DNA from: Pelagicoccus sp. SDUM812005
GTDB lineage: Bacteria; Verrucomicrobiota; Verrucomicrobiia; Opitutales; Opitutaceae
Direction: 5' to 3'
NCBI RefSeq assembly: GCF_031127875.1
Contig: NZ_JARXIA010000032.1
Location: 1 to 45,845 of the forward strand
Length of the DNA: 45,845 nt
Shown: positions 6,610 through 28,627 of the stretch, piece by piece
How the letters are laid out: every line of letters begins with the position of its first letter
Numbering within the stretch: the first letter of the stretch is position 1
Position numbers and translations under genes: made by a program
Notes under the pieces: model-generated
The model's input: the letters and a program-made list of their open reading frames with translations, nothing else
The model's database searches: none
Told to the model about the DNA's origin: nothing

Positions 6610-7911
6610 ATGAAAAGTATCGCAATGATCATTCTGGGGCTGGGGATGGCCCTTTCAGTCGCAGCCCGGGAGGGGACCTTGCTTTCGGATCAGGGATCGG
6701 GACGGGCTACCGCCTATCTGGAGTCGCCGAAGATCGTGACCTTCGAGGGCAAGACGCATGTGGCGTGGCTCGACTCCAGCGAGGAGGGCTTCCGTGTCTG
6801 TATCCGAAGTTTGGATCGGGAAAGCGGCATTTGGTCGGAGCGCTATACGATCGGAGAAGCCGAGGATAACCACGGCGGTCCGGCCCTGACGGTGGACGCC
6901 GAAGGCTATTTGCATGTCATTTACTACGCCCACCACCATCCGGTTCGCTATCGCAAGTCAGTGCGGCCCAATGACGCGTCGCAGTGGAGCGAATACATTC
7001 CTTTCGGCCGGGATCTGACCTATCCCGCCTTGCTCTGCGCTCCCGACGGAACGTTGGTGCTAGCGGCCCGGCGCAGCTACGAGGACAAGCCTTGGGAATT
7101 GGAGATGTGGCGCAAGGAACCTGACGGAGACTGGGAACGGCAAGGCGCGGTGCTGCGGTCGCGGCATGGGATCTACGCTCAGTTCGCCGCCTCCTTGGCA
7201 TGGGGGGCGGATCGTCGAACCCTGCACCTTGCGACCCGTATTTACGAGTTGCCGGAAGACGAGCTGGAGCAACCCTTGACGACTGTCGGGTATTTGAAAA
7301 GCGAGGACGGCGGGCGTAGCTGGTCGCGCTCGGACGGAGCTCCGGTTTCCCTGCCGGCGACAGCGGAGACGCTGGACGTCATCGCGAGCGGTCGCGGCCG
7401 CGAGGGGCGCATCCTGAACGCAGGCTCCTTGGCGATCGGCCCCGACGGGCTTCCCTACGTGCCTTACAGCGTACGAACCGAGGACAGCAGCCAAGCGTAT
7501 TTGGCTCGTCCCTACGGAAACGGAAAGTGGCGCCACCGCCACCTCAATCCCTACCTGCCAGAGGAAGTGCGGGACTGGGCCCTGTTCATGCATGGCGGCG
7601 TTGCGTTCGGCGAGGCCGGGCAACCCGTGGTCACGGCGGTCGCCATGCAGGTGGAGCCCTTGGCGCCGGACTGGGGGGATCCCAGTTCCGAAGCGGTTTG
7701 CTTTCGCTCGGAAGACGGCGGGGAGAGCTTTGCAGGAAATCTATTGGGTCGCATCGACCCCGAGACTCCGAGCTGGATGCCGAATATGGAACGGCCTACC
7801 GGCTTCAACGAAATGGGAGCGTATCCAAGTTTCGTTTACACGGTAGGGGCTCGAGGCGACAGCTTAAGCGACCGCCTCAGCAACGAGGTGTGGTGGGTTC
7901 CGACAGAGTAG
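6610..7911 (+). CDS. Secreted BNR_4-type beta-propeller, possible polysaccharide lyase
   Basis: A 433-residue secreted protein with signal peptide (KSIAMIILGLGMALSVAA, cut near residue 19-20). The start is fixed by CAGGAGA at 6601-6607 just before ATG 6610. The body is a BNR_4-like propeller with the run DNHGGPALTVDAEGYLHV (86-103) followed by YYAHHHPVRYRKS. BNR_4 relatives include seven-bladed lyases of families PL24/PL25 that cut ulvan. H88 and H108 are 20 residues apart, as I recall for the catalytic histidine pair of a PL25 enzyme, so a lyase role is plausible but unproven. It could instead be a non-catalytic glycan-binding propeller. It is the last gene of the cluster starting at 1090. 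Confidence 0.7.
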   Translation: MKSIAMIILGLGMALSVAAREGTLLSDQGSGRATAYLESPKIVTFEGKTHVAWLDSSEEGFRVCIRSLDRESGIWSERYTIGEAEDNHGGPALTVDAEGYLHVIYYAHHHPVRYRKSVRPNDASQWSEYIPFGRDLTYPALLCAPDGTLVLAARRSYEDKPWELEMWRKEPDGDWERQGAVLRSRHGIYAQFAASLAWGADRRTLHLATRIYELPEDELEQPLTTVGYLKSEDGGRSWSRSDGAPVSLPATAETLDVIASGRGREGRILNAGSLAIGPDGLPYVPYSVRTEDSSQAYLARPYGNGKWRHRHLNPYLPEEVRDWALFMHGGVAFGEAGQPVVTAVAMQVEPLAPDWGDPSSEAVCFRSEDGGESFAGNLLGRIDPETPSWMPNMERPTGFNEMGAYPSFVYTVGARGDSLSDRLSNEVWWVPTE

Positions 7912-8071
7912 CGGACGCCCAGGGCTTAGAATCGATCCCTTCGATGGGAATTCGATGGGAGAGGAAGGGCTAGGCGGGGGTCGTTTCGTTAGTCGTACTG
8001 TGTGATGAGGGAAACGCGGCGTGCCCGGCGGTCCCGCCCTACCATTTGCGAATGATCAGACGAAAAATGCT
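7912..8071. other. Convergent intergenic gap
   Basis: This 160-base gap lies between the convergent propeller gene and the M28 peptidase gene. TTCGATGGGA occurs twice in tandem near 7936-7957, and TCCC/GGGA could pair weakly. I see no strong terminator and no gene. Confidence 0.3.
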
Positions 8072-9478
8072 CTAGGGAGCCTTTGGTTCGTCTTCGAAAG
8101 GCCAGATGTTGTAGCGTTTCATGCGTAGCTCGAGACGGGCGTTTTGCAGCAGTTCGATTGTTTTTTCCCGGTTCAAGCGAAGGCCATCGAGGGAGGGATC
8201 GTTCGCGAGCTGGAAGGTGAGTAGGGAGAGAATTCCGATCGATTTCGCCAAGACTTCTTCGTCTACCTTTTCGAAGGTGTCTCCGAAGTCGTGGTAGAAG
8301 GCGACCGCATCGGGATCGATGGGCGCGTTCAAGGTAATGGAAGGAATCCCCTGGACGATGAAAGGCATGTGGTCGCTGCCGAGCCAGGGGGCGTTGACAA
8401 CAGGCTTTGGCAAGGAAAGGCCACCCATTCCTTGGGAAAATTCCTTGAGGACTGGCATGAGCGAAACAAAGCCCATGGCATTGGCGCCGAGCGGATTGCC
8501 CACCATGTCCATGTTGATCATGGCCACGATTTCGTCGTCCTGGTGCTGCTCCATGTAAGCGTAGGAACCGAAGAGCCCGAACTCCTCCGCGTTGAACCAA
8601 ACGGTTTCGATGGTAAAATGGTTTTCTGGATTTATCTTATGGATGAGGCGGGTGATGTCGTAGGCTTGGGCGATGCCGAGCCCGTTGTCCAAGGCGCCTT
8701 GGCCGAGGTCCCAGGAATCGAAGTGGGCGCCGATCACGATCTTCTTGGAGGTTTTTCCGGGCAAGGTTGCGACCAGGTTGTAGGACTCGATTTCCTTGAC
8801 GATGGAGGTGGTCGCGAGCTGCACGCGGGGCTTTTCGCCGCTCTCCACGAGGCGCTTGAGCCAGTGGCCTTCCTCTTCGGTTACGGAATAGATGGGGATG
8901 GGGGAGGCGTCGCCGCTGTAGTTCGCGGTGCGGGCCAGCAGCTGGCCGCCATTCTTTCGGTTGGTCAGGAGCAAACCGACGATGCCGTTCTCCGTAGCTA
9001 AAGACTGGATACTGTCCTGGGATAGCTTTACGTTGGCAGCCAGCAGGCCGATCTTTCCCTGGGAGTTAGCGGGGATCTCCTGCTCGCTTCCCTTGCCCAG
9101 GTAGATGAGTTCGGCGGCGAAGCTCGCATGCTGGTCCACGTAGCCCATGGCGATGGAGCGCAGCTCCCGTTTGAGCGGGTGGAGCAGGGTGGCTCGGTCC
9201 TCCCGCCGCTCCCAGCCGGGAAAGGTGAAGGCTTCGCGGTGGTTGGCGATGCCGTGGGCGTCGAGGGCTTGTTCCAGCATTTGCATGGATTTCTCGTTCG
9301 ACTCGGAGCCGGTGATGCGGCCGCCGTAGAGGTTGGTCATCTCCTCCAGCAGGTGGTAGGACTGGTTGTCCAGGAAGGCGGAGCCCAGCAGGCGTTCCCG
9401 CGCCAGCTCGTCGCTGGCGTTGGAAAGGGTCGCGACGCCGAGGAGCGCGGCGAAGGGTAGGAGTGCGAGTTTCTTCAT
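8072..9478 (-). CDS. Secreted M28 zinc metallopeptidase (carboxypeptidase Q-like)
   Basis: A 468-residue exported aminopeptidase/carboxypeptidase of family M28. The start is ATG at 9476-9478, giving a signal peptide KKLALLPFAALLGVATLSNA (cut near residue 21). Upstream in-frame codons would run into the promoter region and were rejected. All five cocatalytic zinc ligands and the general base are present: H252-x-D254 (GAHFDSWD), D264 (GALDNG), E298/E299 (WFNAEEFG), D324 (MINMDMVG) and H370 (LGSDHMP). Residues about 115-225 resemble the PA insertion of PGCP/carboxypeptidase Q. It is a monocistronic gene diverging from the heparinase operon, probably for periplasmic peptide degradation. Confidence 0.92.
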   Translation of the reverse strand: MKKLALLPFAALLGVATLSNASDELARERLLGSAFLDNQSYHLLEEMTNLYGGRITGSESNEKSMQMLEQALDAHGIANHREAFTFPGWERREDRATLLHPLKRELRSIAMGYVDQHASFAAELIYLGKGSEQEIPANSQGKIGLLAANVKLSQDSIQSLATENGIVGLLLTNRKNGGQLLARTANYSGDASPIPIYSVTEEEGHWLKRLVESGEKPRVQLATTSIVKEIESYNLVATLPGKTSKKIVIGAHFDSWDLGQGALDNGLGIAQAYDITRLIHKINPENHFTIETVWFNAEEFGLFGSYAYMEQHQDDEIVAMINMDMVGNPLGANAMGFVSLMPVLKEFSQGMGGLSLPKPVVNAPWLGSDHMPFIVQGIPSITLNAPIDPDAVAFYHDFGDTFEKVDEEVLAKSIGILSLLTFQLANDPSLDGLRLNREKTIELLQNARLELRMKRYNIWPFEDEPKAP

Positions 9479-9683: not shown

Positions 9684-11732
9684 ATGACCATCTCCAGACG
9701 AGACGCCCTTAAGTGGAGCGGTATTGCCCTTGCGGGCGCGACGATCTTACCCCTGTCGATGGTGGCGGGACGTACGACGCCTAGGGGCGCCGGCCGGCTA
9801 TTCTTCGACAAGGAAGACATTCCGCGGATTCGCAGCAACGCCCGCTCCGAGCTTCTAGGGCCGACGTTTCGCGAATGGGCGGCGACTTCGCCGCAAGCCC
9901 TGGTCGCGGGCTGGAGCAAGTTCGCCAAGACCGGGAACATCGTTTACGACATGCGGGACTTTTGGGCGGCCTTCGAGCACAGCGCCGTGGTCTACATCGT
10001 GGAACCGACCGACGAACGCAGGGAGGCGCTGCTCGAGCATTTCGAAAAGGTCGTGGCCTTGCCCAAGTGGGACTACCTCATGGACGGGGACGAGGATATC
10101 GGCCTGCTGCGGGCGGCTATGGCAGTGTCGCGTCTGCTCTTCATAAGGGAAGCCTTGGGCGACGACTTCGGTTCGGACTTGAACGAACGTTTCCTGTCGG
10201 CCTTGGCGAGCAAGGGGGCGGTCCCTTGCTACCGGACCATTCAAGGTATGAACAATCCGGATACGGTGAAAGGGTGGCGGTACGATCCGCAGCATCCGCA
10301 GATCAACGACTTCAGCCTGGAAAACTGGCCCTATTTCCTAGGGCGAACCAATTTGCGGGGGACGAGCACGATGGGGCTCGGGCTGGCCGCCTTGGCCCTG
10401 GAGGGGCGTGACCCTCGCTGCGAGGAGTGGCTGAAGGTCGCGGTTGACAGCACCTATCAGGTCTTGAGCGAGTTTTCGCCAAACGGGAGCTACTCGGAGG
10501 GCCTGAGCTATGGGGCTTACGCGCTGCGGCTGGTGTTGCAGTTTTGCGAGGCGCACTACCGCGTCCGGGGCGACATCGACTGGTCGATCGCGACCAATTG
10601 GTCAGGCATTATCGACGACGTAGCCGTGATGCAGGCTGGGAAGAACCCGGACGGAACGCCGGACGTGGTGAACTTCAGCGATGCCCGGGCATCGATCCAT
10701 CCCTGTGTGGGATCTTGGATACGGGAGCGAACAGGGGACGAGGCGGCTCAGTATGCGACGAAGCATTTCGCCTCGCCGGGCTACTTCCTCGACTATCTTT
10801 GGTATCGCCCCGCGGCTAGCGGCAAGCCGCCACGCCAGGAGCTCCTGAACTACCGTACCGATCTGGACTGGGTGATTTGCCGCAGCGGGTGGGGCGAGCA
10901 AGACGCAGTCTTGGCCTTCCGCAGCGGGAATCCCGCCAACCATGAACACGCGGATCGGAACAGCTTTTTGTACAAGGCATTCGGCGAGCGCTTGCTGAAC
11001 GACCCCTTCGGGGCGGCCTACGAACGTCGCGATCCGAAGTGGACGCTGCGCATGACCAAGGCCCACAACGCGATCTTGATCGGGGGACGCGGCCACCAGT
11101 ACCACGAAGGCGAGGAAGGGGTAAACGCCGGCCAGGCCAAGGCGGAAATCGTTTCCTACGTCGACGACGGAAAGCGAGTCAGCTGGACGAGCGACGCGAC
11201 GCATGCCTATCGCTTGGCGAACGCGAACGTATCCAAAGTGCTGCGTACGGTGGTTTTTCTGAAGCCGCACCTGATCGTGGTGCTGGACCAGGTGGAGCTG
11301 AAGTCGGAGCGGGAGGCGGTCGAAGTGCGGTATTTTCCGGATAACCGTGACGGTTCCGCCTCGGTGACGCGTAGCAAGTCCCGCTTCGAACTGAAACGGC
11401 CGGGAGCGGCGCTGCGTGGTGGCTTTGCGGCGAATACGCCGCTATCGGTGCGAACCGACCAGCTCGACTTTTCGGAGGATTTGCTCGAAGGAGTGAGCCT
11501 CGACGGCGACAAGGAGCTTGGCGATTATCCTTTCGTAGCGGCCCGTAGTTCGCCCGCCTTGCGGCATGAGCTCTGTACGGTGATGCTTGCCCAGGGCAAC
11601 GAGGTCGCGGAAGCGCCCGCTATTGAGATCAGGGGCAAGCGCAAGGCTTGGCATTTCGAAGCAGCCGGAGTGAAGGGTATTTTGGATACAAGCGGTGAAA
11701 TTCCTAGAGTGAAGGGAGTCGATGAAGTCTAA
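9684..11732 (+). CDS. Tat-exported heparinase II/III-family polysaccharide lyase
   Basis: A 682-residue lyase. The N-terminus carries a twin-arginine signal (SRRDALKWSGIALAGATIL), so it should be exported folded. Residues about 45-390 form the (alpha/alpha) toroid and the C-terminal part is the beta-sandwich heparinase II/III domain. The core motif NPANHEHADRNSF places H420, H422 and D424, as in heparinase II/III, and a Tyr-rich run (GHQYHEGEE) follows. Such lyases cleave uronic-acid-containing glycans such as heparin/heparan, alginate or related polymers by beta-elimination. ATG 9684 was preferred to an upstream TTG. It leads an operon that ends in nagA-nagB, so a glycan with both uronic acid and N-acetylhexosamine is a sensible guess. 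The next gene overlaps it by 11 bases. Confidence 0.88.
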   Translation: MTISRRDALKWSGIALAGATILPLSMVAGRTTPRGAGRLFFDKEDIPRIRSNARSELLGPTFREWAATSPQALVAGWSKFAKTGNIVYDMRDFWAAFEHSAVVYIVEPTDERREALLEHFEKVVALPKWDYLMDGDEDIGLLRAAMAVSRLLFIREALGDDFGSDLNERFLSALASKGAVPCYRTIQGMNNPDTVKGWRYDPQHPQINDFSLENWPYFLGRTNLRGTSTMGLGLAALALEGRDPRCEEWLKVAVDSTYQVLSEFSPNGSYSEGLSYGAYALRLVLQFCEAHYRVRGDIDWSIATNWSGIIDDVAVMQAGKNPDGTPDVVNFSDARASIHPCVGSWIRERTGDEAAQYATKHFASPGYFLDYLWYRPAASGKPPRQELLNYRTDLDWVICRSGWGEQDAVLAFRSGNPANHEHADRNSFLYKAFGERLLNDPFGAAYERRDPKWTLRMTKAHNAILIGGRGHQYHEGEEGVNAGQAKAEIVSYVDDGKRVSWTSDATHAYRLANANVSKVLRTVVFLKPHLIVVLDQVELKSEREAVEVRYFPDNRDGSASVTRSKSRFELKRPGAALRGGFAANTPLSVRTDQLDFSEDLLEGVSLDGDKELGDYPFVAARSSPALRHELCTVMLAQGNEVAEAPAIEIRGKRKAWHFEAAGVKGILDTSGEIPRVKGVDEV

Positions 11733-18412: not shown

Positions 18413-18434
18413 GCTGCCGTTAGGAACCGGCAGC
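18413..18434. terminator. Possible shared hairpin at convergent gene ends
   Basis: A 7-base perfect stem (GCTGCCG 18413-18419, CGGCAGC 18428-18434) spans the end of the symporter gene, directly after nagB. There is no T-run on either side, so factor-independent termination is doubtful. Confidence 0.3.
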
Positions 18435-20129
18435 GACCCAATAGAGGCTGCCGACGATCGAAGCTACGCAGAGCCAGCCTGCCGCAAACCCGATGACCGA
18501 GCGCTTGCTGGGCAGGCTGAGCTCAAACTCCGAATTGGGGAAGAGGGTCTTGCGTGGGAGGGTGGCGACTCCCTCGGGAAGGGTGCAAGGCGGGGCGTCG
18601 TTGTTCTCCTCTTGCAGGACCGGGGTACGCTGCAGGGCGTAGTAGCGCTCCAGCTTTTCGCTGGGAGTGCGTTGCGTGCAGAGGCTGGTGACGATGCCCA
18701 CCAGGAAGCCGATGCTCAGGTAGAGGGTCATTTGCCACGGGAGGTAGACGGCAGGTCCGGCCTCGCCTTCGACGACCAAGCGGACGTTCTCTGCGAAGTC
18801 GAACTGAGAGAGCCAGTTGGCGAAGAAGGCTTGGGAGGTAATCCACCAGACCATGAGGGCGGAAAGGGTCGAGGTCCACGCCGCGGCGGAAGTCGCCCGG
18901 CGCCAGAAGAGCCCTAGCCAGAAGGCGATGCCCATCATGGGGCCGATCTTCCAGAGGAACTCCAGGCCTTCGATAACGTCGGAAAGCGAATAGGCGTAGA
19001 TCACGCCGAGCAGCACTACCAGCACGGACATGATCCGGGCGGCCCAGAGGTAGTGCGTATCCGACATCTTGGGACGGAAAGGTTTGTAGATGTTTTCCGT
19101 GAAGAGGGCGGAGGCCGAGATCATGAAGGAGTCGCAAGAGCTCATGACGGAGGCCAGCAAGGTCGCGATGAAGAGTCCCAGCATGCCTGGCATGATCTGC
19201 GGGAAGAATTCGCGCGAGAGCATACCGTAGAGGTGGTCAGGATTGATTTGCTGTCCGGTATAGTATGCGATTCCGGCAAGGCCGGTTAGGCACCAAGCGA
19301 CGGTGCAGAACCGTTTGGTGAAGCTTCCCACCACGAAACCGAACTGGCCTTCCCGTTCTGTCTTGCCCGCCGCGCAACTCGAAAGGATGTGAGGTTGGGT
19401 GACGATTCCGATCAGGCCGTTGACCGCAATGGCAACGATGTAGAAGATCCCGATTTCGCTGGGGGCAACCAGCGAGAACACTTGCGGATCCGCGATGGTC
19501 TCACGCACTCCCTGCAGGCCACCCGTGGCGTTGAGCACGAAGGGCAGGAGGAGGAAGGAGAAGATGATGGTCATGATCCCTTGAACGAAATCGGTGACGA
19601 TCGCTCCCCCTAAACCGCCCGCTGTGCCGTAGGCCACGAAGAGGATGGTCATGGCGATGATGGCGATGCCCGGGGAAATGCTGCCGCCGCTGGCTCCCGA
19701 GATGACGGCGCCGGATCCTTTGAGCATCAGACCAATGGTTGTAACCATCATTCCAATACTGATCAGGGAATACAGCATGGCTACGCTTCGATTGTAGCGA
19801 AGCTCGAAAATGTCCGCGGTGGTTAGGGCCCGGAAGCGCCGCATCATGGGAGCGATCAGCCAATAGAAGGGGGTCCCGAAGAGATAGAGCCACTGGTACC
19901 ATATTCCGGAAAGCCCATTGGTATAGGTTTTGGAGGCCACGCTGACAGCTTGGTCGGAATGGGTACCGGAGCCGAAGGCATGCATGGTCATCATCCATTT
20001 TCCGAAGCGTCGCGGCATGATAAAGTCGCTCATGCCTTTGATCTTTCGCATGGAAAGAGTACCGAGCAGGGTGACTGCTACGAGGTAGACGATGAGGACG
20101 AGGAGATTGAAGAACCCGATTCCGAGCAT
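18420..20129 (-). CDS. Sodium:solute symporter (SSS family)
   Basis: A 569-residue inner-membrane transporter with about 13 hydrophobic segments, starting with FFNLLVLIVYLVAVTLLGT at the N-terminus. SSS-family features include the conserved region around ELRYNRSVAMLYSL and a Gly/Ser-rich stretch GSGAVISGASGGSISPG. The family takes up sugars, proline, betaine, acetate or similar solutes with Na+. It is the last gene of the minus-strand corrinoid operon, 6 bases after the M23-like gene, so it is the best candidate importer of the methylated substrate. It could alternatively feed the facing nagAB operon. Specificity cannot be read. Confidence 0.88.
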   Translation of the reverse strand: MLGIGFFNLLVLIVYLVAVTLLGTLSMRKIKGMSDFIMPRRFGKWMMTMHAFGSGTHSDQAVSVASKTYTNGLSGIWYQWLYLFGTPFYWLIAPMMRRFRALTTADIFELRYNRSVAMLYSLISIGMMVTTIGLMLKGSGAVISGASGGSISPGIAIIAMTILFVAYGTAGGLGGAIVTDFVQGIMTIIFSFLLLPFVLNATGGLQGVRETIADPQVFSLVAPSEIGIFYIVAIAVNGLIGIVTQPHILSSCAAGKTEREGQFGFVVGSFTKRFCTVAWCLTGLAGIAYYTGQQINPDHLYGMLSREFFPQIMPGMLGLFIATLLASVMSSCDSFMISASALFTENIYKPFRPKMSDTHYLWAARIMSVLVVLLGVIYAYSLSDVIEGLEFLWKIGPMMGIAFWLGLFWRRATSAAAWTSTLSALMVWWITSQAFFANWLSQFDFAENVRLVVEGEAGPAVYLPWQMTLYLSIGFLVGIVTSLCTQRTPSEKLERYYALQRTPVLQEENNDAPPCTLPEGVATLPRKTLFPNSEFELSLPSKRSVIGFAAGWLCVASIVGSLYWVAAGS

Positions 20130-20135
20130 AGTATT

Positions 20136-21098
20136 TTAGATGTTCGCGTTAGCGTATTCGATGAGAGAGATGGTATCGACTAGGAACTTGAATCCGTAGC
20201 CGCTGAGCTCCAGCGTGGAGGGAATTTGAAGGTTTCCGGTGTATTCAATTTTCCACAACTCGCGGTTGTTCGATACTAAGATGCTATCGGAATCCGTAAG
20301 CTCCTTGGCGGCTTCAGCGTTTTTCGCGTTGAGGGATTGGATGCCCGGGAAGGCTCGTGCCAGGACTCTGCGGATTGCTGCCCGATCATCCCTGCTGGAA
20401 CCGGTGCTGACGAGGCGAGCGATGGGGGACTTGGCCTCGCTTCCGATGATGAATTGGGCCGCTCTCACTTCAGGCGCAACCAGAGACAGCGGATCCAAGT
20501 AGTGGAGCTTGCCGGAACTTTCCCATTGCAGCCAATGATCGAAGGTGACCGAACTGTCTGGCGTGGCGACCAGGTCCTCGTTGAGGAACGCTGTCGATAC
20601 GTGCAGGTGGGAGGCCGTAACCGATTTGAGGTTGTCGGAGCGCTTTATGGTTCCCAGGTTTTGACCCAGCTCGACCGCACTGCCTACGGGAGCCGCTTGG
20701 CTATCGATGTGGGAGTATTGGACGAGGAAGCGGTATCCCTGCGATTGGTAGTCGCTGGCGACGATAAGGGTGTCGCCCACAAGATCATCGAAGCGCCACA
20801 GCACGCGGCCGCGCAGCAGGGTGGAGACCCCGAGACCTTGCAAGCCCGCTTGGAACGGTCGCGTATCCACTTTTTGGGCAAGCGCGAAGTCGAGGCCTTC
20901 GTGGGGACCGCCTCCGTAGGAATCGTAGCGGGTTTTAGAGGTGTCACCCCACCAAATGTTAGGGCTGGCGAATTCCATGCCCGGGCGGATGACCCATTTC
21001 TCTACCGTTGGTTTCCCCAGTTTTTGAATACCGGACGTGAACTCCTTGCCGATCGCGCAGCGGAGCGCCTCTTCGTTGAGTTGGATGAGGGAAGACAT
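20136..21098 (-). CDS. Cytosolic LytM/M23-peptidase-like protein in corrinoid operon
   Basis: A 320-residue protein with the metal-site pattern of M23 (LytM) zinc peptidases: H66-x3-D70 (PHEGLDFA), H130 (QYSHID) and H164-x-H166 (ASHLHVS). M23 enzymes normally cut peptidoglycan cross-bridges outside the cell. This one has no signal peptide or membrane anchor visible, and it sits 4 bases after the corrinoid activator and 6 before the symporter, so it is fully embedded in a methyl-transfer operon. The C-terminal part (about 225-320) is not part of the peptidase fold and I do not recognise it. The start ATG at 21096-21098 is the only good one. Its role may be unrelated to cell wall; metal binding or hydrolysis of the imported compound are guesses. 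Confidence 0.65.
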   Translation of the reverse strand: MSSLIQLNEEALRCAIGKEFTSGIQKLGKPTVEKWVIRPGMEFASPNIWWGDTSKTRYDSYGGGPHEGLDFALAQKVDTRPFQAGLQGLGVSTLLRGRVLWRFDDLVGDTLIVASDYQSQGYRFLVQYSHIDSQAAPVGSAVELGQNLGTIKRSDNLKSVTASHLHVSTAFLNEDLVATPDSSVTFDHWLQWESSGKLHYLDPLSLVAPEVRAAQFIIGSEAKSPIARLVSTGSSRDDRAAIRRVLARAFPGIQSLNAKNAEAAKELTDSDSILVSNNRELWKIEYTGNLQIPSTLELSGYGFKFLVDTISLIEYANANI

Positions 21099-21102
21099 TC
21101 GC

Positions 21103-22857
21103 TTAGGCCCTTCTGCGTTCCGAGCTAGTCCGAGTCCGCTCGATGCGAGACTCCGGGAACTCCAGGGTGAGGTGCGGGATGAAGAGCGCGTTGATGAAAT
21201 CGTTTTGGAAGGATTCCTGGGCGTTGAGCTCCACCCATTCCAGCTTGTCGATGAGGGAACGCACGGTGTGCTTGGCGTTGCGGTCGATCGCGTAATGGAT
21301 GGCGCCTTTGAGAGACGCGTTGCCGCAGGGCGAAACCTTTTTGGGATCGAGCGGGGGGATGAGCCCGATGTCGATCATGTCCGGTACGCGCACGCGCTTG
21401 CCGAAGTTGCCGGCGAGGTGGAGTTGCACGATATCGAATACATCGATTCCCGCGACCTTGGCCATGGTGATGATACCGGAAAACACGGCTGCCTTTGCCT
21501 GCAGGAAGTTGCTGATGTCGTCCTCGCTCAGGTACACGTCCTCGGTGAAGGCGTAGACGCGTTGCGATTGGCCCAGCAGTTCTCGGGTTTCGACCTTATC
21601 GTGTCGACGAGTGTAGCGCCCCTTCTTGCGTAGGATGCGAGCGCGGTAGGCCGCTGCCACGAAAGAGATGATGCCGGATCCGCAAAGTCCAATGGCAGGC
21701 TGGTCTCCGATGGTCGAGTAGCGGAGTTCTCCGCCTTCCTCCCAGACGTGGTCGATGGCTCCGGGGATGGCGCTGACGCCGCAGGGGAAGCCGCCGCCTT
21801 CGAAGGAAGGGCCAGCAGGGACAGCGGTGCAGAGGAGCCGCCCTTCGCTCTTGAAAGCCATTTCCGCATTGGTTCCAAGGTCTACGAAAAGCGTATTGTC
21901 CGGCAGGCTTTCGAAATCCAACAGGGTGAGACCGCTGATGATGTCGCCGCCGAGGTAGGCGCTTTGGGAAGGAACGAACTCCAGCTGCCTTCCCGGTAGG
22001 CGGTAGTCGGCGGCCGGGCGAGGCGAGGGAGCGAAGTCGACTCCATTGAAGGGCCAGCCACCCATTCCCGTGGGATCGAGACCGAGCAGGATATGGATCA
22101 TTGGCGAATTTCCAGAGAGTACGGTGTTTAGTACTTGATCGCTGGATACACCGTTGTCGCGTAGGAGCGACTTAAGGAGAGGGGCAAGCGAACGCTTTAG
22201 GCCCAGCTCCTGCATCTCGGCGAGCAATTCCGGTGTATGGCAAAAGGCGATACGCGCGACTAGGTCTTCGGAGTAGGCGTATTGACCGTTGAGCCGCCCC
22301 CGGGAGTCGACCAGTTCGCGCTTCTCCAGATCGATCAAGGTGGCAGCCAAGGTGGTGGTGCCGATATCGACCGCCAGGGCGTAGCATTTGCGGTTCTCCC
22401 CTTTGGCGATGCATTGGGCTTGGCCGTCGAAGCAGGCCAGCTCGACTGGGCCTTCGAAGTCAGAGCTCGTGGTTCCGTCGAAGAAATGGGGAGCAAGGGT
22501 GAGGCCCTGCGGCAAGGCAGATTCGATGCGCTGGCGGTTGGATCGATTCGGATGCTCTTCGGAAGGGGGCACCGTAACGCTCTCGCAGGTCCAGCGGGGG
22601 GATTCGCAAATGAGGCCGTCCTCGATGGTGCTCAGGTCGATGGAAATGTTGGCGCTGGAGGCGGCCGACTCGGGAACGGTGATGTCGTAGGACCCCGCTT
22701 CGACCTCGGTCTGGCAGGCCAGTACGGGCTGGCCATCGAGAATGACGCGGCAGGTCTTGCAGGAACCGTGTCCGCCGCAGGACATCTTGAGGGGAATGCG
22801 CTGCTCCCTCAGGTGAGTGGAGAGGGTGCAAGGCGTGGCTATGTCGACTTTATGCAT
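21103..22857 (-). CDS. Corrinoid activation protein: 2Fe-2S ferredoxin plus ASKHA domain (DUF4445)
   Basis: A 584-residue reductive activator of corrinoid-dependent enzymes (RACE/RACo type). Family knowledge: it uses ATP and an electron from its [2Fe-2S] cluster to return inactive Co(II) corrinoid to Co(I). The N-terminal ferredoxin has C27, C33, C36 (CGGHGSCKTC) and C48. The C-terminal two thirds is the sugar-kinase/actin-like ATPase: VDIGTTTLAATLID, VLSGNSPMIHILLG, FVDLGTNAEMAF and IGLCGSGIISFVA. It is closer to the 2Fe-2S form than to RamA, which carries C-terminal 4Fe-4S clusters. It follows the methyltransferase gene by 4 bases. Its partner should be the corrinoid domain encoded at 25037. 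Confidence 0.9.
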   Translation of the reverse strand: MHKVDIATPCTLSTHLREQRIPLKMSCGGHGSCKTCRVILDGQPVLACQTEVEAGSYDITVPESAASSANISIDLSTIEDGLICESPRWTCESVTVPPSEEHPNRSNRQRIESALPQGLTLAPHFFDGTTSSDFEGPVELACFDGQAQCIAKGENRKCYALAVDIGTTTLAATLIDLEKRELVDSRGRLNGQYAYSEDLVARIAFCHTPELLAEMQELGLKRSLAPLLKSLLRDNGVSSDQVLNTVLSGNSPMIHILLGLDPTGMGGWPFNGVDFAPSPRPAADYRLPGRQLEFVPSQSAYLGGDIISGLTLLDFESLPDNTLFVDLGTNAEMAFKSEGRLLCTAVPAGPSFEGGGFPCGVSAIPGAIDHVWEEGGELRYSTIGDQPAIGLCGSGIISFVAAAYRARILRKKGRYTRRHDKVETRELLGQSQRVYAFTEDVYLSEDDISNFLQAKAAVFSGIITMAKVAGIDVFDIVQLHLAGNFGKRVRVPDMIDIGLIPPLDPKKVSPCGNASLKGAIHYAIDRNAKHTVRSLIDKLEWVELNAQESFQNDFINALFIPHLTLEFPESRIERTRTSSERRRA

Positions 22858-22861
22858 CAGC

Positions 22862-23752
22862 TTACTTTGCCTGTGCGGCTTCGAGGGCGCGCTTTTCGGC
22901 TCGCGTTTCCTTGATGTACTTCATGCCCAGCTTGTCGGCGCCGGTGACCGTATCGGCAGTGAGCATGGCCCATTTGAGTGCGGGGTGGGTGATGTCGGTG
23001 ATGGGCGCGTTCATTCCGTTGTAGATCGCGATCGCGAGGTAGTAGGCGTCGAGCGTCTTTCGCTTGGGCATGCCGAAGCTTACGTTGGAGGCGCCGAGGG
23101 TGATATTCGCGTTCAGCTTCTCGCGAATAAACCGCATCGTATCCATCGTACAACGACCCGCTCCGACATCGGTGGCGACGCCGATGGCGATGCAGTCGAA
23201 GATGAAGTCGTCGATGCCAAATCCGTACTTCTTGCCTTCCTCTAGGATCTTGAAGGCGCAATTGAGCCGGCCTTCCGCGGTGTAGGGAATGCCATCGTCG
23301 TCCGCTGTCATCGCTACCATGGCGGCGCCGTGCTTCTTGGCGATGGGGAAGATCTCGTCCATCTTTTCCTGCTCGCCGGAAATGGAGTTGATCAGGCAGC
23401 GCCCTTCCGCCTTTTCCAAGGCGGCGTCGAGGGCGGCGGGATCGCCGAAGTCGATGGAGAGCGGGCAATCCACTCGCGAGCGAATCGCGGTAACGGCGAT
23501 GGGAAGCAGCACCTTTTCCGGGATGTCGAGCCCGACCATGTTGACGTTGATCACGCCTGCTCCCGCTTCGTATTGGGCCACGGCTCGGTTGACGACTTCG
23601 TCCCATTCTCCGCGAGCCACGGTTTCGCGAACCTTCTTGTAGCCGAGGGCGTTGCAGCGTTCGCCGATGACGACGGTGCGACGATTGGGGGCGATGCGCA
23701 CGCGGTGCGATTTCGAGGAAATGATGGTGGTAGGTATGTTCGTGTCCGACAT
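22862..23752 (-). CDS. DHPS-fold methylcorrinoid:tetrahydrofolate methyltransferase
   Basis: A 296-residue pterin-binding TIM barrel related to AcsE/CmuB/MtrH. Motifs: GERCNALGYKKV (30-41), INVNMVGLDIPEK (68-80), SIDFGDP (99-105), LINSISGEQEK (120-130) and LGASNVSFGMP near the C-terminus. It should move the methyl group between the corrinoid protein and tetrahydrofolate. Compared from memory with AcsE, the Asp of the first motif is Asn69 here and the Asn of the third is Asp104, while the late SNVS Asn is kept, so pterin protonation may be arranged differently. It lies between the MetF-like gene and the corrinoid activator, on one transcript. Confidence 0.85.
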   Translation of the reverse strand: MSDTNIPTTIISSKSHRVRIAPNRRTVVIGERCNALGYKKVRETVARGEWDEVVNRAVAQYEAGAGVINVNMVGLDIPEKVLLPIAVTAIRSRVDCPLSIDFGDPAALDAALEKAEGRCLINSISGEQEKMDEIFPIAKKHGAAMVAMTADDDGIPYTAEGRLNCAFKILEEGKKYGFGIDDFIFDCIAIGVATDVGAGRCTMDTMRFIREKLNANITLGASNVSFGMPKRKTLDAYYLAIAIYNGMNAPITDITHPALKWAMLTADTVTGADKLGMKYIKETRAEKRALEAAQAK

Positions 23753-23776
23753 TGGAGTAGGGTTTAGAGGCTGAGG

Positions 23777-25036
23777 TTAAGTAACGGTATTCAGGGAACG
23801 GAGACGGGCTTGCCGGGCACGATCTCGGATCTGGAGTAGAAATTCGTCGATAAGGTGGGGCGGCATGCCAAAGTTCATGGTGTGCACCCCAGCGGCGCCG
23901 TGTTCGGTGACGCCTTCGGCGATCTCGAAGGCCCAGTCGAGGGCCTTTCGCTGGAAATCTTCCGACTCCATGATGCGGCGCAGGGATTCGTCGACGTAAA
24001 CGCCGGGCAGGCGGCAGAGCACTTCGAAGGCCCGGCGGCTTCCAACGAGGGGGATGGAAGGGATGGTGAGCTTCGGTTCGTTTTCCCGCCCGGCTCGCAG
24101 CTGCTTGTACCACTCCTGAAAAGTGGGAACATGGGTGATGGCCTGCGTCTGGCAAAAGCGGGCGCCTGCCTGGCGCTTGAAATGGAGCCGTTCCACGCTG
24201 ATCGGCATCGGCGTCGAGAAGGGATTGGCGGCGCAGCCGAGATAGGGAGCGACGCCCAGTCGCTGTTGGAAGTCTTCGAGCCGCGTATTGGCAAAATGGA
24301 TCATTTGGGAGCTATCCATCGGAAACCAGCTTTGCTGGTCCACTTTTCGATCCTTTTGCGGGAGCCAATCGCCGGTGAGGAGGAGGAAGTTCTTGTGTCC
24401 GCTGCCGATGGCTTTCTCTAGCTCACGCAGGAAGTCGTCCGCGTGGTGGTCCCTGCCGCAAAACTGGATGATCGATTCGACCTGGTAGGCTTGCACGACC
24501 TCGGCAGTTTCCATCGACGAAAGCGAGGGGATGCCGCCGGCGTTGGTCGTGGTGTTGACGGCGTCGACGTGGTCGGCCACGCGTTCCATAATCTTGTCGA
24601 CGCGGTTTAGCCCTTTGGCGGTCAGGGGAGAGGCGATCTCAAGGGTGACCACGAACTCGCCTCGATACATTTTACGGGCGAGACGTGAGCTCGCCGGAAT
24701 CTCGCTGGTATCCACGAAGTCCTGCGGAAGTCGCGTTTTCCGGTCTTTTCCGTTAACGAAATTAACGTAGCTAGCTGTATTCAAAAGCTTGGGATCCGGG
24801 GGAAGGTGGATGCCGTCTTGCTTTTGCGTCTTCTTTTTTTCGATACGCGTCCAGACGCATTCGATTTCTGGGATCACCTCGCACTTTCCGTCCAAGGTTC
24901 CGCCGCAAGGCCCGTTGCGCAGGCCTTTGGGGCAGTTCATCGGGCAGATGAGCTTGGTATGCGTGAGGATGCATTGGCCGCAGGTTTGGCAGCCAAACGC
25001 TTTCTCCTTAATCCACTTTTCGACCGTGTAAATCAT
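23777..25036 (-). CDS. MetV-MetF fusion: methylenetetrahydrofolate reductase with N-terminal Cys-rich domain
   Basis: A 419-residue protein. Residues 1-65 form the MTHFR_C/MetV-type Cys-rich domain with eight Cys: C16, C19, C22, C31, C35, C44, C52, C60. In acetogens the separate MetV subunit carries iron-sulfur clusters or zinc. Residues about 115-415 are the MetF flavin barrel, with GEFVVTLEI (catalytic Glu region), FCGRDHHADDFLRE and FLLLTGDWLP. In this operon it most likely runs in the oxidative direction, methyl-THF to methylene-THF, but assimilation is also possible. The start ATG (25034-25036) directly abuts the stop of the upstream fusion methyltransferase (25037-25039), which implies coupling. 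The electron acceptor is not encoded nearby. Confidence 0.85.
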   Translation of the reverse strand: MIYTVEKWIKEKAFGCQTCGQCILTHTKLICPMNCPKGLRNGPCGGTLDGKCEVIPEIECVWTRIEKKKTQKQDGIHLPPDPKLLNTASYVNFVNGKDRKTRLPQDFVDTSEIPASSRLARKMYRGEFVVTLEIASPLTAKGLNRVDKIMERVADHVDAVNTTTNAGGIPSLSSMETAEVVQAYQVESIIQFCGRDHHADDFLRELEKAIGSGHKNFLLLTGDWLPQKDRKVDQQSWFPMDSSQMIHFANTRLEDFQQRLGVAPYLGCAANPFSTPMPISVERLHFKRQAGARFCQTQAITHVPTFQEWYKQLRAGRENEPKLTIPSIPLVGSRRAFEVLCRLPGVYVDESLRRIMESEDFQRKALDWAFEIAEGVTEHGAAGVHTMNFGMPPHLIDEFLLQIRDRARQARLRSLNTVT

Positions 25037-26815
25037 CTAGGCTGAGATGCCGAGGGCCTTAAGATCGGCCAGGGCTCGCTTGGCGGCGATGACTCCATCG
25101 GCGGCCGAGTCCGCATAGTAGTCGGCGTCAATCTTGTCGCAGAACTTTTCGTTGATGGGAGCTCCCCCGATGAGGACCTTTACGGTATCGCGCATGCCCT
25201 CGTCCTTGAGGGCCTGGATGACGCGCTCCATGTAGTTCATGGTGGTGGTCAGCAAAGCGGACATGCCGACCATATGGATGTCGTTTTCCTTGAGGGCGGC
25301 GATGAACTTCTCGACCGGGACGTTGACGCCTAGGTCGAGGATCTGGAAGCCGGCTCCCTCGAGCATCATGCCGACCAGATTCTTGCCGATGTCGTGGATG
25401 TCGCCTTTCACGGTGCCGAGCAATACACGGCCGACGGGCTTGGCTCCGGTCTTCGCGATCAGCGGCCGCAGGATCTTGAGGCCTTCGCTCATCGCTCGGG
25501 CGGCGATCAGCATTTCCGGGACGAAGAGCTGCTTTTGGGCGAAGCGGTAGCCGATGACGTCCATGGCGGGGATCATCGCTCGGTCGACGATTTCGCCCGG
25601 CGGGATATCGTCCTCGAGGGCTTCCTGCACCAGCTCGACGACATCGTCCTCCTCGCCCTCTTCGATGGCTTCGGCGAGTTCGCGCAGGATCGGTTCCAAG
25701 CCTTCCTCGTAGGTGGGTTCCGTGTCGACGACGATTGCTTCCGTCTCCTGCTTCTTCTGCTTGAAGATAGGGCGTGTAGGCGTCCAGTTCTTGTAGTCCT
25801 TTTCCAAACACGCCCGAACTGCGTCGATATGCTCCGGCGGGCAATCGTAGGCGGCGACCCCGGTACCCAGGATGAAGCCCGGGTGGTCCCAGCACTTGTT
25901 CAGGATATTCATGGTGAAGTCCTGAATCTTGTCGATGGGACCGAGGTGGAGAAGTCGCGGGTCGACGTTGACGCGCATGGGAAGGTTGTTTTCCAGCGCC
26001 TTCTTTTTGAAGAGCTCGATGTCGCCCTCGAAGTCGCAGAGGATCTGGGTCGTATCGGTATCGATGATGGCATCGAGGATCGGTGTGGTATCGCCGCCGA
26101 TAATGAGCGGGATTTGCTTCGCTCCAGCGGCCTTCAGTTCCGGAATGAGGATGCGTTTGTAAACTTTGGATACAATTTCCTGGAAGATCTGCGGAGAGCA
26201 AAGCGGCGGCATGGCGCGCGAATCGAAGATGATGGGATCGATGCCGATATCGACGAAGGCCTTTCCGAAGGCAGCCGCGACCCGTGCCGTAAACTCCATG
26301 AGTTTGACCGTGTACTGCGGATCCTGCATGGTCATGACAATGAAGTTTTCAGCTCCCATCAGTTCGGAGGCGAGGGAGAAGGGGCCGGTGATGGCGCCGC
26401 GAATCTTGATTTCATGCCCCAGCTTGGCGTGCAGTTTCTTGGCTGCCTCCAAGTAGAGCGGCATGCGACCGTCCTTCGTGGGATCGGGGATGCTGAGCTT
26501 GTCGATATCGGAGAGTTTCTTGATGGGAAAGTCCTCCACGCCCGGCACGTCGGGGGAGTCGTCGAAGTAGACGATCTTGCAGCCGAGGGCTTCGGCTTCG
26601 ACGTTGTAGACGTCGATTCCGACGGTGAGGAAATCCGGCTTGTAGCGTTCGTACTCGGCTAGCAGGCCTTCGACCAGCAGGTCCGGATCGCGGCAAATTT
26701 CCGAGGGGGTCTTGCCGATCAGGAAGCCCTTGTGCTCGTAGATGGCGGGGCAAAAGGGGATACGCTCGCCTATCTCCATGGATAGGACTTTGTTCATGAG
26801 TTCTAGGCTATTCAT
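25037..26815 (-). CDS. CmuA-like fusion of UroD-type methyltransferase and corrinoid-binding protein
   Basis: A 592-residue fusion. Residues 1-345 are a uroporphyrinogen-decarboxylase-like methyltransferase barrel (MtaA/MtbA/CmuA superfamily). Residues 369-455 are the helical corrinoid cap. Residues 460-592 are the B12-binding Rossmann domain with D472-x-H474-x2-G477 (GDIHDIGKN, lower-ligand His), S519 (GMSALLTT) and G550-G551. The same order occurs in CmuA, which demethylates chloromethane. The MtaA-type zinc motif HxCG is replaced by LIIGGDTTP (237-245), and the later zinc Cys position reads GTGVAAYD, with C325 three residues on. The usual zinc site therefore looks absent. ATG 26815 was chosen over an upstream start that overlaps the next gene. 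The methyl donor is unknown: methoxy, N-methyl, S-methyl and halomethyl compounds are all possible. Confidence 0.85.
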   Translation of the reverse strand: MNSLELMNKVLSMEIGERIPFCPAIYEHKGFLIGKTPSEICRDPDLLVEGLLAEYERYKPDFLTVGIDVYNVEAEALGCKIVYFDDSPDVPGVEDFPIKKLSDIDKLSIPDPTKDGRMPLYLEAAKKLHAKLGHEIKIRGAITGPFSLASELMGAENFIVMTMQDPQYTVKLMEFTARVAAAFGKAFVDIGIDPIIFDSRAMPPLCSPQIFQEIVSKVYKRILIPELKAAGAKQIPLIIGGDTTPILDAIIDTDTTQILCDFEGDIELFKKKALENNLPMRVNVDPRLLHLGPIDKIQDFTMNILNKCWDHPGFILGTGVAAYDCPPEHIDAVRACLEKDYKNWTPTRPIFKQKKQETEAIVVDTEPTYEEGLEPILRELAEAIEEGEEDDVVELVQEALEDDIPPGEIVDRAMIPAMDVIGYRFAQKQLFVPEMLIAARAMSEGLKILRPLIAKTGAKPVGRVLLGTVKGDIHDIGKNLVGMMLEGAGFQILDLGVNVPVEKFIAALKENDIHMVGMSALLTTTMNYMERVIQALKDEGMRDTVKVLIGGAPINEKFCDKIDADYYADSAADGVIAAKRALADLKALGISA

Positions 26816-26829
26816 AGTTTGGGGTGTAT

Positions 26830-27567
26830 TTAAGGTAAGGATACGGGGGAGCTTTCGCTCGCTAGGACTTGTTTCTCGAAAGGGAGTACCCGCAGCTGGC
26901 AGTTTCGATCGGGACAGCGCCAGCAGCGCGGTTGGGCTTCGCCGCACTCCGGAAGCGGGTGCTCGCGTTCTACCGAGCTGCCGAAGCCGATAACCGCAGT
27001 TACGGTCGCGAGGGGGTGCATGAAAAACGATTCCGCGTCGAAGTTGACGCCGATTTGCTGCAGCGGCAGCGCTTCCGCGAATCGTGCCTGCAAGGAATGC
27101 GGCAAGCGGTCGGTACCGGGTGAAAGGCTATCGCCGATCTTGCAGTCCGGATAGCGTTGGCTCAGTTCGCGGCGGGCCTTCACTAGGCTGTCGCGGGCAA
27201 TGGCGGTGGCGATAGCGGTGTAGACGTAAGCCTTCATCGGATCGTCTTCCCGCATCACGAAGTCATCCCATTCGGAGCTGATGGTTCCGGCTACCAAAGC
27301 TGCGTATTCGGGAAGCTGCAAGTAGCGTTGCAGCCGTATCGATTTTCCTAGTACAGCTTTGATTTGCTCGCTGCGCCCGATGGTCCAAGCCAGTTTCGGA
27401 CGAGCGATTGCGGCGGCAACCGGCAAGCTCTCGTCGATCAATCGGGTCAGCCGCTTGCGGATCGGTTTACCGGGAGGAATGCCCATGCTGCGAAGCACCT
27501 TATCGTAGCTAAGGATCGGAGAAAGGTGTAGGATTTCAGGAACGAGTTCTTGCACAGCAAGGGGCAA
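26830..27567 (-). CDS. MetH reactivation-domain-like protein
   Basis: A 245-residue protein resembling the B12-dependent methionine synthase activation domain found as stand-alone proteins in corrinoid operons. The match covers SLSPGTDRLPHSLQARF (147-163, place of the AdoMet motif RFSPGY), LQQIGVNF and FMHPLATVTAVIGFG (182-196). The tail has C208, C215, C218 and C223, a possible metal or cluster site. In MetH this domain remethylates inactive corrinoid with AdoMet after one-electron reduction. It is the first gene of the minus-strand operon, 14 bases before the fusion methyltransferase. The start is uncertain: TTG 27567 gives full length, and the first ATG is at residue 28. No clear ribosome-binding site was seen. 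Confidence 0.7.
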   Translation of the reverse strand: MPLAVQELVPEILHLSPILSYDKVLRSMGIPPGKPIRKRLTRLIDESLPVAAAIARPKLAWTIGRSEQIKAVLGKSIRLQRYLQLPEYAALVAGTISSEWDDFVMREDDPMKAYVYTAIATAIARDSLVKARRELSQRYPDCKIGDSLSPGTDRLPHSLQARFAEALPLQQIGVNFDAESFFMHPLATVTAVIGFGSSVEREHPLPECGEAQPRCWRCPDRNCQLRVLPFEKQVLASESSPVSLP

Positions 27568-27724
27568 TTCGGTTCCGGAACTATAGGTAATTCGGGAGCT
27601 TTCCGTCTTGGCCGATCGGGCGGTTTGTGATTAGACAATATGGCTATAGCTTTTGCGGTTCTTAATATTGAAGTCCGTAAGTCATAGAAGTTCAGCTGGT
27701 AAATGAAAACGACGGGTGGTTCTG
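27568..27724. promoter_or_regulatory. Divergent promoter region of corrinoid operon and AraC regulator
   Basis: This 157-base AT-richer gap lies between outward-read genes (27640-27710 is visibly richer in A/T than its surroundings). It must hold the promoter of the corrinoid operon and of the regulator. I could not assign minus-35/minus-10 pairs or a riboswitch. In particular I see no cobalamin riboswitch, which would need more space. Confidence 0.35.
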
Positions 27725-28627
27725 ATGAGTAGACGGATAAGAAATTATACGAATGATGACGGGGCGAAGGGACAAGCGCGTCGGCACGAGCCCATGGGGG
27801 TGCCCATGCCGGATGCCGGCATCTATATTCTAGAGAGCCACCACTCTGCGAGTTTCCGCATGGCGATGGGAAGCTGGCCGTTTCACAAGATCTGCTGGGT
27901 TCCGGTGGGTCGCGGTTTCTTGGAGTTCGAGGACGGGCGCGTGGTGCTAGGCACCCATGCTTTTGCGGTCGTACCGAAGGGGTGCGAGCACCGATTCGTC
28001 GACGATCCGTCGGAGCCGATGACCTTGATCATCGCTTGCGCCACGGAGGCTGCCCTGCGGGGCGAGGGAACCTTGGCCTCCCTGTTCGCGACGTTGCTGC
28101 AGCGCTTTCCGCGTAGCAAGGCGGTCCGAGCCCGCAGCGCCTACCACTTCAGCTTGATGCGCGATTGCCTGCAGGGAATGCTGCGGGAGCAATCGCGCGG
28201 CGGCTTGGGCAGCGGAGCGATGCTGCATGCCCTTTTGACTCAATTGGTGGTGGCGATGGTACGGGGCGCGGAACCGGGGGGAGTGGTGGACCACGGGCCG
28301 GCCGCCGCGCTGGAAGGATTGCTGGAGGAGCTGGAAAGCCACTTCGATCGACCGGTATCGCTGGAAGAGGTCGCGGAGCGTTGCGGGCTTTCGCCGCGAC
28401 GTTTTACGCAGCTCTTCAAGGAGCGTACCGGTTCGACTTTGGTCGAGTACGTGAACCGCTTGCGCATCGATTACGCGAAGGAGCGCCTGCGCGAGACGGG
28501 TCACGTCGCCTACGCCTGCCACGAATCGGGGTTTCAGGATTTGGCCTATTTTTACCGCAGCTTCAAGCGCTACGTCGGCTGCACGCCGGGGGCCTTCGTG
28601 AAGGCCGAAGCGGCTGGCAAGGATTGA
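27725..28627 (+). CDS. AraC-family regulator with cupin sensor domain
   Basis: A 300-residue regulator. An N-terminal cupin-type domain (about 25-125) contains GRGFLEFEDGRVVLGTHAF and PKGCEHRFVDDPSEP. The C-terminal DNA-binding domain has helix-turn-helix one SLEEVAERCGLSPRRFTQLF and the second motif ending GFQDLAYFYRSFKRYVGCTP. GTG 27716 is a possible start three codons earlier; ATG 27725 has GGGTGG 6-11 bases before it. It diverges from the seven-gene corrinoid operon with a 157-base gap, which makes it the prime candidate regulator and substrate sensor for that operon (inference). Confidence 0.9.
   Translation: MSRRIRNYTNDDGAKGQARRHEPMGVPMPDAGIYILESHHSASFRMAMGSWPFHKICWVPVGRGFLEFEDGRVVLGTHAFAVVPKGCEHRFVDDPSEPMTLIIACATEAALRGEGTLASLFATLLQRFPRSKAVRARSAYHFSLMRDCLQGMLREQSRGGLGSGAMLHALLTQLVVAMVRGAEPGGVVDHGPAAALEGLLEELESHFDRPVSLEEVAERCGLSPRRFTQLFKERTGSTLVEYVNRLRIDYAKERLRETGHVAYACHESGFQDLAYFYRSFKRYVGCTPGAFVKAEAAGKD

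Follow-up and report, generated by a model that had tools for sequence, protein, structure and literature searches.

A candidate corrinoid-dependent O-demethylase operon in Pelagicoccus featuring a natural UroD-corrinoid fusion

The window analysed here, a stretch of 45,845 nucleotides from the genome of Pelagicoccus sp. SDUM812005, contains a seven-gene operon. On balance, it probably specifies O-demethylation via a corrinoid, the methyl donor being a methoxylated compound and most likely an aromatic of the LigM type. This is the economical reading because the same regulator lineage occurs together with either LigM or the UroD-corrinoid fusion of the operon, and the same UroD clade together with corrinoid, LigM or Rieske genes. 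Pelagicoccus is a marine genus, and corrinoid-dependent O-demethylation has been described in acetogens and in some archaea. In the open-licence PMC literature, searched at the level of titles and the beginnings of abstracts, no description of such a system in Verrucomicrobiota was found. If the reading is true, this type of O-demethylation extends to Verrucomicrobiota, with MT1 and corrinoid protein naturally fused and a methyl-THF oxidation step of the system's own. Moreover, the exchange of corrinoid, LigM and Rieske modules among related genomes narrows the donor to a directly testable class. The original prediction of a dedicated methyl-transfer operon was upheld, whereas the closeness to CmuAB, the operon's own importer and an O-methylated sugar as donor were not, the regulator pointing to methoxylated aromatics.

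Gene content and conservation of the operon

Seven open reading frames occupy positions 18420-27567 on the minus strand, with intergenic gaps of 6, 4, 4, 24, 0 and 14 bases, and thus within the predicted range of 0-24 bases. The divergent AraC-family regulator, likewise predicted, is encoded at 27716-28627 on the plus strand and features HTH_18 and HTH_AraC domains. The first gene of the operon (26830-27567) matched neither a Pfam nor an NCBIfam family. Its product resembles the PDB chain 1j6r (phmmer, E 2.3e-5), termed "methionine synthase" in the PDB file and presumably a reactivation-domain-like chain; the gene is therefore referred to as MetH-reactivation-like. The second gene (25037-26815) encodes a fusion of 592 amino acids, in which a UroD domain (MT1; approximately residues 5-335; URO-D, 146.4 bits) is followed by a corrinoid domain (approximately residues 377-569; B12-binding_2, 76 bits; B12-binding, 89.7 bits) including the motif GDIHDIG. 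According to the alignment with three relatives, the ATG at 26815, and not the upstream GTG at 26947, is the start codon of the fusion. The third gene (23777-25036) again encodes a fusion, with Pfam domains for a MetV-like (DUF5981) N-terminal part and an MTHFR C-terminal part; at 7589-9244 of locus L041, an island around a stand-alone UroD gene, this domain order is reversed. A DHPS-fold methyl-corrinoid:THF methyltransferase (MT2) follows at 22862-23752 (Pterin_bind, 78.1 bits; best PDB match 4o0q, E 3.4e-29), being 32-34% identical to the MT2 genes on two alphaproteobacterial plasmids. Next to it, a RACo-type 2Fe-2S/ASKHA corrinoid reductive activase is encoded at 21103-22857 (RACo_C_ter, 234.8 bits; Raco_middle; Fer2). 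The product of the sixth gene (20136-21098) is called M23/LytM-like on the basis of a sub-threshold match to Peptidase_M23 (PF01551, 19.6 bits vs. a cut-off of 28.7), and it shares HxxxD and HxH motifs with its relative from P. mobilis (L006). The last gene (18420-20129) encodes an SSS-family sodium:solute symporter (SSF, 116.6 bits). AF2 structure models were poor, with mean pLDDT values of 58 and 43.

Searching genome contigs with the fusion returned four loci, namely in Verrucomicrobiae bacterium DG1235, in two Pelagicoccus and on a 4.6-kb Opitutales fragment that stops within the UroD domain. In an order-wide search of 372 genomes (E <= 1e-60), 27 were matched, four by a fusion, 21 by a stand-alone UroD (22 loci) and two by a corrinoid protein only; the fusion occurred in four of the six same-genus genomes listed. 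A phylum-wide search of 387 genomes, partly overlapping the order set, gave matches in 28 of them and no additional fusion. Outside the family, these matches were corrinoid proteins and a single 32% match spanning both parts, which is interrupted by internal stop codons.

The conservation of the gene order was confirmed in part. The five-gene core (MetH-reactivation-like, UroD-corrinoid, MetV-MTHFR, DHPS and RACo) follows the same order in each of the four fusion genomes, whereas the M23-like gene is optional and the SSS gene was found in the window only. As the core recurs in three further genomes, the grouping of these genes is not due to chance. Two of the fusion genomes feature an amidohydrolase gene between DHPS and RACo, and in the remaining two, the window and P. 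mobilis, RACo is followed by the M23-like gene. A search of the rest of the window's own genome, run without a positive control, did not find the amidohydrolase. The M23-like gene is present in 3 of 120 genomes of the family, and a homologue at 9771-10721 of locus L095 lies on a 14-kb fragment without matches to proteins of the corrinoid operon. No SSS gene was detected by tblastn in the flanks of the three relatives' operons (L004-L006), so that the operon's own importer named in the original prediction is not supported. The same prediction had raised an O-methylated sugar as one hypothesis from the facing operon, which carries the nagA/nagB genes. These are convergent to the operon, and no nag genes were found flanking the operons of the three relatives; accordingly, the facing nag operon was dropped as an argument, and a donor of this kind is without syntenic support. 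In strain DG1235, a second set of AraC, UroD, corrinoid and UroD genes is located directly downstream of the operon (L004, 15995-19651).

Regulator kinship and neighbourhoods of related UroD genes

LigM was found in 22 of the 372 genomes of the order, at 23 places, 18 of which were inspected for their surroundings. Twelve of the inspected places are without a UroD gene; nine of these feature a divergent AraC gene and eight a MetF/V gene, and two of the three places without AraC are cut by a contig end. The AraC protein of the window was searched against the same 372 genomes, with up to six candidates scored per genome. After the three copies from fusion operons, it matched eight genes at 232-264 bits, the next score being 121.6 bits. 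All eight, the closest AraC relatives outside the genus, belong to LigM-bearing genomes, and seven of them are located less than 1.5 kb from LigM on the same contig. In genome G147, the eighth gene stands at the start of another contig, and the LigM contig ends within MetF/V. Among 49 AraC proteins placed in a tree, those of the window, L004 and L006 cluster with four copies from LigM loci (support 100/100), and the L005 and L007 copies fall outside this LigM-linked clade. All 32 AraC proteins encoded at loci with a fusion, a UroD gene or LigM form one group (91/82) against a background of just 17 others. The AraC genes of stand-alone UroD loci reached at most 121.6 bits against the window AraC, no better than other AraC genes. 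The kinship of the regulator, the best clue to the donor, points to LigM-type substrates, i.e., methoxylated aromatics.

A candidate regulatory element, ATTAGACAATATGGCTAT, is located between AraC and the operon (27630-27647) and recurs with 2 and 3 mismatches in two relatives sharing the same AraC. Compared with six partner regions, two of them from close relatives, it showed 33 mismatches, with minima of 38-41 in 15 shuffles. Against four LigM regions, 28 mismatches were counted and the shuffled minima were 24-26, hence the agreement is not beyond that of shuffles; the best mismatch sum for LigM regions alone, 23, falls at a different site.

The stand-alone UroD genes (22 loci in 21 genomes) have varied neighbours. 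MetF/V, DHPS and RACo genes accompany nine of them, with a corrinoid gene also in eight of these nine. At six further loci, MetF/V is found together with a homologue of LigM, which matches the vanillate/3-O-methylgallate O-demethylase in the PDB at E 4e-127. One locus (G317) combines MetF/V with an amidohydrolase and two feature a Rieske/VanA_C oxygenase, VanA being, going by its Pfam name, an O-demethylase of vanillate as well. Four loci, one at a contig edge, are without any demethylation genes. In nine genomes (the six with LigM, the two with Rieske genes and G317), no corrinoid, DHPS or RACo gene was found at the UroD locus, and the clade may have a different role at these loci. The idea that it works corrinoid-free at LigM and Rieske loci was weakened, since a corrinoid match lies elsewhere in each of the nine genomes, within an open frame 215-260 residues long.

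Away from the UroD islands, ten corrinoid loci were inspected in ten genomes, six of them from the nine lacking an adjacent corrinoid gene. In five (L104, L105, L106, L109 and L111), a single corrinoid gene and a single RACo gene are accompanied by 4-9 UroD-family reading frames, an arrangement in which many donor enzymes possibly share one methyl carrier; in the alignment, the reading frames of L105 differ in their zinc-site motifs. Islands of up to nine genes with UroD, corrinoid, MTHFR/MetV, DHPS, amidohydrolase and RACo were observed at L041, L042, L043, L050, L051, L052, L055 and L059, ending in small proteins without a Pfam match, one of which features a conserved STCGN motif. L039, L042, L045 and L053 share a conserved protein of about 800 amino acids (partial at L053), encoded on the stretch that also carries the UroD gene. 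Searches with its L042 copy gave no match, in Pfam up to E 0.5 as well as among PDB chains up to E 1; 4-O-methylglucuronate, suggested as a substrate by eye from this neighbour, was dropped given the missing matches and the lack of literature support found. In another family of the order, a gene for an MtaB-type methanol methyltransferase adjoins corrinoid, RACo and UroD genes (L061, called from a family search, and L062, called from its similarity to L061).

Taken together, Opitutales may run an interchangeable demethylation regulon, in which related AraC regulators, often along with MTHFR-MetV, drive three unrelated demethylases (corrinoid, folate-dependent LigM and Rieske oxygenase), and, in the relatives of Pelagicoccus, LigM may have given way to a natural corrinoid O-demethylase that is zinc-free and made as a single chain. 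We put this combined proposal forward tentatively, with doubts prevailing, and rate it slightly lower than we otherwise would because the AraC proteins of stand-alone UroD loci do not outscore other AraC proteins.

Proposed methyl transfer and competing explanations

In line with the original prediction, the enzyme acting on the donor is probably the fusion itself. Its zinc-less UroD domain would methylate the Co(I) corrinoid bound by the C-terminal domain of the same chain, and the DHPS-fold protein would pass the methyl group on from the corrinoid to tetrahydrofolate (THF). MetV-MTHFR would oxidise the resulting methyl-THF (CH3-THF) to methylene-THF (CH2-THF) for one-carbon metabolism, oxidised corrinoid would be re-reduced by RACo and the MetH-reactivation-like protein, and AraC would switch the operon on in the presence of the donor. 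In the genome, no match to LigB and no intradiol dioxygenase over the cut-off were found; therefore, the ring is perhaps unused and the methyl group alone may be the gain.

In its make-up, the operon can be likened to the systems of the UroD-superfamily O-demethylases MtvB, OdmB, VdmB and MtoB, which likewise comprise a UroD MT1, a corrinoid protein, an MT2 and an activating enzyme (extracts of PMC13222342 and PMC8630106; in the latter, MtoB groups with MtvB). In these systems, however, MT1 and corrinoid protein are separate chains, whereas the window features them fused and accompanied by MetV-MTHFR. The host had been expected to be non-acetogenic, and indeed its genome contains no match to the ACS beta-subunit, for which the control query was detected in 2 of 14 genomes, both archaea. 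The combination typical of aryl O-demethylases, a UroD-fold MT1 with its cognate corrinoid protein as well as an MT2 and an activating enzyme inside the cluster, is present, the first two as a fusion. A man-made equivalent is described in an extract of PMC9930637, in which the designed MT-L5-CP joins MT1 and corrinoid protein from Desulfitobacterium N to C for O-demethylation; the natural window fusion, for which this activity is predicted, would be the counterpart of the chemists' hand-built enzyme. For the vanillate O-demethylase LigM with S6MTHFR, the methyl group ends on THF and is then oxidised via MTHFR (PMC12585457), as proposed for the window. LigM has a GCV_T fold and no corrinoid, in contrast to the window operon, and the LigM loci of Opitutales carry the closest relatives of the window AraC.

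The same demethylation machinery might serve another donor, e.g., an O-methylated sugar, a quaternary amine or a sulfonium osmolyte taken up by the symporter, since SSS symporters import compounds of this type. A comparable back end is found on plasmids of Paracoccus and Sinorhizobium, where genes for a corrinoid protein, DUF1638, MetV, MTHFR, MT2 and ASKHA adjoin an MttB gene, and the protein of about 800 amino acids at four UroD loci may be counted in favour of such a donor as well. Likewise, the MtgB/C/D system of Ruegeria with MetF2, RamA and DUF1638 shares the corrinoid protein, MT2, second MTHFR and activase with the window, again in a non-acetogen, and mutants showed this gene set to be required for the use of glycine betaine (extract of PMC12478193). 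According to the same extract, though, Mtg has an MttB-type front end and a corrinoid subunit also serving methionine synthesis. A scan of the operon's proteins revealed no MttB-type methyltransferase, as had been predicted, and the corrinoid domain stays below the MtgC cut-offs (189 vs. 370 bits and 181.5 vs. 310 bits). Given, in addition, the relatives' flanks without SSS and nag genes and the closest kin of the window AraC at LigM, a different donor is unlikely, although it deserves consideration.

It is rather improbable that the flow is reversed, so that methyl-THF loads the corrinoid and the UroD domain methylates an acceptor in methionine synthesis or a biosynthetic step. Ruegeria MtgD is required in both directions (extract of PMC12478193), which makes such a use conceivable. 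Still, the genome contains three B12-binding matches, the fusion and two frames of 1310 and 731 residues, the longer of which carries DHPS and corrinoid parts and is MetH-like. A second MTHFR is encoded elsewhere in the genome (E 4.1e-91), on top of which the operon has its own, and no homocysteine-binding domain was matched by Pfam in the ten proteins scanned. The relation of AraC to regulators at LigM adds to this. Because of the MetH-like chain and the second MTHFR elsewhere, a methionine-synthase operon was rejected, and the operon, which combines a corrinoid protein with MT2, MTHFR and activase, seems to be dedicated to demethylation, as originally proposed.

Zinc site of the UroD domain

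The positions of the zinc ligands read I/V-x-G...V in all 26 aligned clade sequences (window, three further fusions and 22 stand-alone proteins), whereas CmuA, two UroD proteins of Acetoanaerobium and the MtaA chain 4ay7 keep H-x-C...C. This departure is not unique to the clade, as the full motif occurs in only 7 of 17 displayed sequences outside it. The clade was supported by 100/98 in a tree whose bootstrap had not settled and in which many other branches are long. The His-Cys-Cys zinc site, the marker of S/Se methyltransferases (extract of PMC10418091) such as SCMT and Mlp, is absent from the clade. Catalysis by CdmB is zinc-free, and zinc is likewise absent from a Moorella O-demethylase (extract of PMC13222342). 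The missing ligands are counted in favour of the proposed O-demethylase.

The original prediction had placed the operon close to CmuAB. Similar to the window, the CmuA/CmuB/MetF2 chloromethane pathway features MT1 and corrinoid domain in one chain with a separate MT2 and MTHFR; neither an ASKHA nor an AraC gene was found around cmuA in an incomplete gene table. A chloromethane or halomethane dehalogenase of the Cmu kind is highly improbable despite this layout and despite zinc-free CdmB, after which the absence of zinc does not exclude haloalkanes (extract of PMC13222342), since the window UroD domain lacks the three ligands kept by CmuA, gave no BLAST match to CmuA at E 1e-4 and reached 98.8 bits with the MtaA/CmuA family model TIGR01463, far under the curated cut-off of 235.4; on these grounds, a CmuA homologue was rejected. 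A stand-alone UroD relative matched CmuA over 85 residues (BLAST, 3e-5), and a UroD protein of Thiodictyon keeps the histidine and the last cysteine of the motif, with the middle cysteine replaced by alanine.
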